Positions 1-687 of a stretch of DNA of 64,000 bases are shown one piece after another. The DNA comes from Spirochaetota bacterium. GTDB taxonomy: Bacteria > Spirochaetota > Brevinematia > Brevinematales > Brevinemataceae. Each line of letters begins with the position of its first letter. The first letter of the stretch is position 1. The stretch spans positions 1-64,000 of the forward strand of contig JAGUQW010000011.1 in NCBI GenBank assembly GCA_030154445.1, given 5' to 3'. The notes under the pieces are model-generated. The model saw only the letters and a list, made by a program, of their open reading frames with translations. It was not told the DNA's origin and ran no database searches. Both the position numbers and the translations under genes were made by a program.

Positions 1-68
1 CAGACAGACAGACAGACAGACAGACAGACAGACAGACAGACAGACAGACAGACAGACAGACAGACAGA
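1..68 (+). repeat. CAGA tetranucleotide tract, 17 copies
   Basis: Seventeen uninterrupted CAGA units run from the left edge of the window, so the true copy number may be larger. Read in the frame of the downstream nucleotidyltransferase the tract has no stop and encodes a repeated Gln-Thr-Asp-Arg peptide. It leads directly into the canonical start of the enzyme (KINIVIPMAGDGQRF). A four-base unit inside a coding sequence means that gain or loss of one unit shifts the reading frame. This is the arrangement of classic contingency genes in mucosal bacteria. Confidence 0.97.
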
Positions 69-687
69 TAAAATAAATATTGTTATTCCTATGGCAGGTG
101 ATGGTCAACGATTTCAAAACTCGAAGTGGAAAACCCTGAAACCATTCATAGAATGGAATGGTAAAAAAATGATAGAACATGTCATGCATAATCTGAATTA
201 TCATCAACAGGCACATTTTATTCTTATTTTACGAGAAGAACATGCATTAGAATATCAGAAAGAACTAAATGAAATCAAAAATAATTTTGATGTTACTTTT
301 GTCACTATCAAACAAAAAACCGAAGGACCTCTTTGTACTATCTTATTTGTAAAAGATCTTATTAATAATGGTACTCCCATTTTGATTGCAAACAGTGATC
401 AGATTGCAGATTGTGATGTTGATGATTTTGTTGATTCTTGCTTGGAAAATAATTTTGATGGTAGTTTGCTAACATTCGAAGAAACAGAACAAAGTCCGCG
501 TTGGTCTTTTGTTAAAACAGATGCTGATAATAAAGTAACAGAAGTCAAAGCCAAAATACCATTTTCTAGTCAAGGTGTTGTGGGTTGGTATTTATATCGT
601 AAAGGTTCTGATTTTGTTGATGCTGCTATAGACTTAATTATTAGAAATGATAGAGCTAATAATGAGTTTTTTCAATGCCCTACCTAG
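1..687 (+). CDS. Sugar-phosphate nucleotidyltransferase domain, 5' end outside window, ends at internal TAG
   Basis: After the QTDR repeats the protein shows the nucleotidyltransferase signature (IPMAGDGQRF, then KPFIEWNGKKMIEHV) and the metal-binding region around ANSDQ. It fits the NTP-transferase family that activates sugar phosphates for capsule or lipopolysaccharide synthesis. The conserved family start lies upstream of the first ATG at 91: codons 70-90 read KINIVIP in frame, so 91 is not the true start. The initiator must lie left of the window, before the repeat. The frame stops at a TAG (685-687) exactly where the family continues with Tyr (CPT-Y-NYAIA), and homology resumes in the same frame immediately after. 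This looks like a nonsense mutation, a readthrough site or a base-call error. The sugar substrate is not determinable. Confidence 0.8.
   Translation, partial: QTDRQTDRQTDRQTDRQTDRQTDKINIVIPMAGDGQRFQNSKWKTLKPFIEWNGKKMIEHVMHNLNYHQQAHFILILREEHALEYQKELNEIKNNFDVTFVTIKQKTEGPLCTILFVKDLINNGTPILIANSDQIADCDVDDFVDSCLENNFDGSLLTFEETEQSPRWSFVKTDADNKVTEVKAKIPFSSQGVVGWYLYRKGSDFVDAAIDLIIRNDRANNEFFQCPT

Follow-up and report, generated by a model that had tools for sequence, protein, structure and literature searches.

The window, a stretch of 64,000 nucleotides from a draft spirochaete genome, opens with a tetranucleotide repeat that reads directly into an enzyme gene. The question is whether this repeat switches the gene or merely precedes one that no longer works. 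We think it probable that it is a contingency tract of the Haemophilus and Moraxella kind, lying 5' of a fused nucleotidyltransferase and GT14-like gene, and that the allele sequenced here is disrupted or decaying. Slipped-strand mispairing would add or drop CAGA units and thereby shift the downstream frame.

The CAGA array and the gene behind it

The array begins at the first base of the window. Its right-hand part, (CAGA)17 at positions 1–68 of the forward strand, consists of seventeen perfect units (TRF score 136, 100% match) that encode QTDR repeats and run in frame into KINIVIPMAGDGQRF. This is the start of a sugar nucleotidyltransferase, which follows the array directly, as the original prediction had described. 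Five random genomes of 1.5 Mb each were generated with a first-order Markov model and the dinucleotide make-up of the real genome. Their longest tetranucleotide arrays reached 3–4 units, so the seventeen-unit tract is beyond chance. It is a long, perfect repeat whose unit length is not divisible by three, as in contingency loci. A census of 1,495,405 bases found two long tetranucleotide arrays in the genome, this one and an AACC array. Other arrays, which are shorter, and poly-C tracts of 9 were rejected as candidates; they fall in hairpins, between genes or in ordinary coding repeats. The predicted spirochaete host is supported. We take the organism to be Brevinema, since its GyrA and that of an uncultured Brevinema MAG share 94% identity.

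The sugar nucleotidyltransferase domain (NTP_transferase fold) is in frame with the array at positions 70–684 of the forward strand, its last part lying beyond an in-frame TAG at 685–687. The Pfam match (NTP_transferase, PF00483; E=9.2e-10, 38.9 bits) is above the curated cut-off of 21.2 bits, and the nearest solved chain is 4evw (E=3e-9). The TAG falls inside the domain, and aligned homologues have an amino acid at this position. Beyond it, the same frame continues for 394 codons without a stop (688–1872, forward strand) and ends at a TAA; the other two frames contain 29 and 41 stops. GC3 in this stretch resembles that of neighbouring genes. The continuation encodes the end of the nucleotidyltransferase and a domain like GT14 (Core-2/I-branching) glycosyltransferases. 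Its GT14/Branch match (PF02485; E=0.0069, 16.4 bits) is below the curated cut-off of 23.4 bits. The similarity is transitive: BLASTP gives E=1e-9 to a protein (L096) that itself matches Branch at 4e-21. A single-sequence AlphaFold2 model of the domain has a pLDDT of 36. Both domains thus belong, or belonged until recently, to a single fused gene of some 600 codons.

The original prediction of a surface-glycan enzyme is plausible as to glycans, given the nucleotidyltransferase match and the weak GT14-like domain; a surface role would go further than these matches. Elsewhere in the window (5523–6968), a WbaP-like undecaprenyl-phosphate sugar transferase gene lies between gyrA and msrAB. It supports polysaccharide synthesis in the organism and is conserved in the genus mates that are without the CAGA gene.

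Because the TAG lies in the only coding frame, no number of CAGA units gives a full-length product from the locus as assembled. Errors at contig tips in this assembly lie within about 175 bases of the ends and are nearly all to A, so the TAG is not of that kind. It may nevertheless be a base error. Interrupted in this way, the sequenced copy probably makes no full-length enzyme now and is probably a disrupted or decaying contingency gene. The prediction of phase-variable expression therefore survives in part: the frame-shifting tract is at the 5' end of the gene, but the TAG bars full-length product at any unit number.

The best-surviving alternative is that the gene is dead and the microsatellite in front of it has simply expanded. 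The array may then still mutate, with nothing switched, before a pseudogene that has no working start and carries a nonsense codon. We consider this unlikely, though it deserves serious weight. It would account for a stop within the catalytic domain and for an upstream start that is only a TTG without a Shine–Dalgarno (SD)-like motif (see below). A family relative also contains a stretch like the GT14-like domain that is interrupted by several internal stops (L050, G003:C3:2170-2469), possibly a relic of a related gene. Against a dead gene, the rest of the frame is intact and its GC3 is gene-like, so that any decay must be recent, and the tract is placed exactly where contingency tracts are.

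Sequence upstream of the array and the contig junction

The draft genome has 18 contigs (1.50 Mb). The window is contig C11 and base 1 is its first base, so the seventeen units are a lower bound. Contig C4 ends in a CAGA array of the same orientation, 55 bp past the pheT stop. This left-hand part (G000:C4:210402-210516, outside the window) spans 115 bases, or 28.75 units, and does not reach a right-hand flank. The whole tract is therefore probably 29 units or longer. Near the C4 tip there are two C>A deviations. Reading the resulting AAGA as real variant units is less likely than a contig-tip error, because the tip of contig C5 shows a matching drift. There, 13 of 14 deviations are C>A, and C at an A position is never seen.

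The interval between pheT and the array on C4 is GCTTGACAAATGAAAGAAAATATGGAAAATTTATAAGA. Its two ATGs share one frame, which a TAA closes immediately ahead of the array. Only one canonical start, a TTG, gives a frame that stays open into the array: it encodes TNERKYGKFIR after the start and enters the QTDR repeats without meeting a stop. Should translation begin at this TTG, arithmetic puts the enzyme in frame for arrays of 29, 32, ... units (2 mod 3). The original prediction had placed the start upstream of the array. The C4 end supplies the TTG, but the 18 nt preceding this codon contain no SD-like motif, and both ATGs run into the TAA. An SD-like motif is present for 410 of the 566 ORFs of at least 300 aa (longest-ORF starts).

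Just upstream of the array is a 10-of-12 match to a sigma-70 promoter, TTGACA-16-GAAAAT, whose perfect −35 box overlaps the TTG. Transcripts from it would start near the first repeat; this promoter and the TTG start cannot both serve one transcript. The array could thus be a transcribed leader or promoter spacer whose repeat number tunes expression and not frame. The weakness of the TTG start would fit such an arrangement, and expression of meningococcal nadA is known to be tuned by repeat length near a promoter (PMC2791445). We consider it improbable. Chance alone would place about one such sigma-70 site in the stretch (0.8, sd 0.8), and there is no good start codon between the array and the enzyme; the ATG at position 91 would cut off the first strand.

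The right end of C4 very probably joins the left end of C11, a junction deduced without read-through. All contig ends were compared, and each has a single partner through an overlap or a shared repeat, apart from the rRNA ends, which are partly masked, and the left ends of C13 and C17, which were paired by elimination. The contig ends pair up into one circle and a circular element of 25.8 kb (C18), which makes the join very probable. That the two CAGA ends are separate loci, with the real left flank and start of the window gene elsewhere, is very unlikely: the join does rest on a shared repeat and elimination without a unique overlap, and contig tips do carry C>A errors, but a search of the whole assembly found no CAGA array beyond these two ends, and the remaining ends pair into closed molecules. 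The tract explains the assembly break at the start of the window. In both genus mates, contigs end just after pheT, short of the region where synteny would bear on the junction.

Two further observations concern contig ends. The ends of C18 (25,805 bp) share an exact 141-base overlap, so this contig is probably circular, a plasmid or a phage-like element. The breaks at the ends of C3, C5, C6, C7, C9, C11 (right), C12 and C15 are mostly at longer coding repeats, with runs encoding, for example, GGDEGYEE, FDNPLDND and GGYNRPN. Their units are apparently divisible by three, so that length and not frame would vary.

Tetranucleotide arrays elsewhere in the genome and the phylum

The AACC array lies outside the window, on contig C17 (G000:C17:22505-22683, L094) and contig C5 (G000:C5:1-1593, L069). 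On C17, AGGA-N8-ATG precedes 24 AACC units that read in frame into LNKLIYGDNKEIL. The remainder of the gene is on C5; it encodes an N6/N4 DNA methylase with an Mrr-like domain (N6_N4_Mtase and Mrr_cat). The best PADLOC models are type II. The architecture is not that of a type III Mod with an adjacent Res gene; the next gene on C5 is an rplQ-like ribosomal gene on the opposite strand. Over its final 80 bases, C17 departs from C5 at two positions. Both changes are to A, and one gives a stop; we take them as contig-tip errors. C17 has 24 units between its two flanks, and the C5 tip has 27 in phase and still falls short of the ATG. The sequenced material may have been heterogeneous in length, but this is no more than a hint, because contig tips are error-prone. 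A single locus was preferred over two paralogous ones, since the pairing of contig ends yields one circle. AACC runs of at least 8 units were found in no other of 393 Spirochaetota genomes. The AACC methylase locus is a better candidate for phase variation than the window gene.

CAGA runs of at least 8 units are present in 14 of the 393 Spirochaetota genomes, across 10 genera, the Brevinema genome included. Eleven loci outside this genome were read, and in six of them the array is in a DNA-modification gene (L173, L175, L176, L177, L179 and L180). Three, from three genomes, are EcoRI-type adenine methylases. One is an HsdS whose two halves lie in different frames, one on each side of the array. 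Another is an N6/MmeI-like methylase that starts SD-ATGGCCGA(CAGA)14, and one is a C5-methylase. Among the other loci are a SAM methyltransferase and a possible lipoprotein, the latter with SD-ATGA(CAGA)11. Several of these arrays come after an SD motif and an ATG. No sugar nucleotidyltransferase was among the outside loci read. With such small counts, and with EcoRI-type cases that are mutually homologous, this is a pattern to test and not a statistic. At two loci from a single genus (L171 and L172), a CAGA array begins within a few bases of an SD motif and ATG. Behind the array, L171 has a hairpin and a T-rich stretch but no gene, and in L172 the contig breaks off within the array.

Relatives of the window gene are scarce. 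Both genus mates are without the CAGA array and a clear homologue of the gene, and a peptide-pattern search of genome contigs found no orthologues. The GT-like domain has only weak, partial relatives in the 393 Spirochaetota genomes.

Taken together, these data favour a contingency tract before a damaged allele. The array is far above chance and is one of only two of its kind in the genome. It sits directly before the first strand of the enzyme, the usual site in H. influenzae, where such tracts are at or just after the gene start (PMC2651432), and its unit matches the GACA tract of H. influenzae lgtC (PMC3938747). One frame is open from the TTG through the array, and the coding frame is kept for 394 codons past the TAG. 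The AACC locus shows the full anatomy of SD motif, ATG, array and gene, and CAGA arrays stand behind an SD motif and ATG in other spirochaetes. The TAG, the TTG without an ATG or SD-like motif, the genus mates without orthologues and the indirect evidence for the C4–C11 junction count against this reading. The mechanism originally predicted is of the right kind, and the example in the window is weaker than was thought, its start being unclear and its gene interrupted.

More tentatively, Spirochaetota may hold little-noticed tetranucleotide contingency loci, chiefly in DNA methyltransferases and specificity subunits. The Brevinema genome would have two, an AACC epigenetic switch and a CAGA glycan switch that is OFF or disrupted here. 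That spirochaetes too carry GACA/CAGA and CAAC/AACC units, most of them on enzymes that modify DNA, suggests that slippage has been used repeatedly and independently to diversify populations, and raises the possibility of phasevarions in the phylum. This wider pattern is of more interest than the single window locus, which is an example of a contingency gene in an apparently broken state.

Comparison with known systems

Tetranucleotide frame switches are best known in Haemophilus, Neisseria and Moraxella. We found no reports of tetranucleotide contingency loci or phase variation of this kind in spirochaetes in the literature searched. A 2025 review does list Treponema pallidum among species with repertoires of phase variation by simple sequence repeats (PMC11868660).

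The AACC locus of Brevinema resembles Moraxella catarrhalis modM, which carries a CAAC tract (PMC6902483). CAAC is AACC rotated, both tracts lie at the N-terminus of a methyltransferase, and unit numbers are similar. The Brevinema enzyme differs in being an N6/N4 methylase fused to an Mrr-like domain, with type II best models and no adjacent Res on the C5 side. The window array shares its unit and at least 8 copies with the other Spirochaetota tracts, but the genes differ.

The closest likeness of the window gene is to lgtC and other phase-variable LOS glycosyltransferase genes of H. influenzae (PMC3938747, PMC2651432). GACA is CAGA rotated, the tracts have tens of units, and in each case a frame-shifting period of four lies at the 5' end of a gene for glycan synthesis. 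In contrast to lgtC, the Brevinema gene encodes a nucleotidyltransferase with a GT14-like domain, has no detected ATG-led frame into the array, carries a nonsense codon and belongs to an unrelated phylum. The window locus is thus a contingency-type repeat of a known kind, in an allele that looks disrupted.
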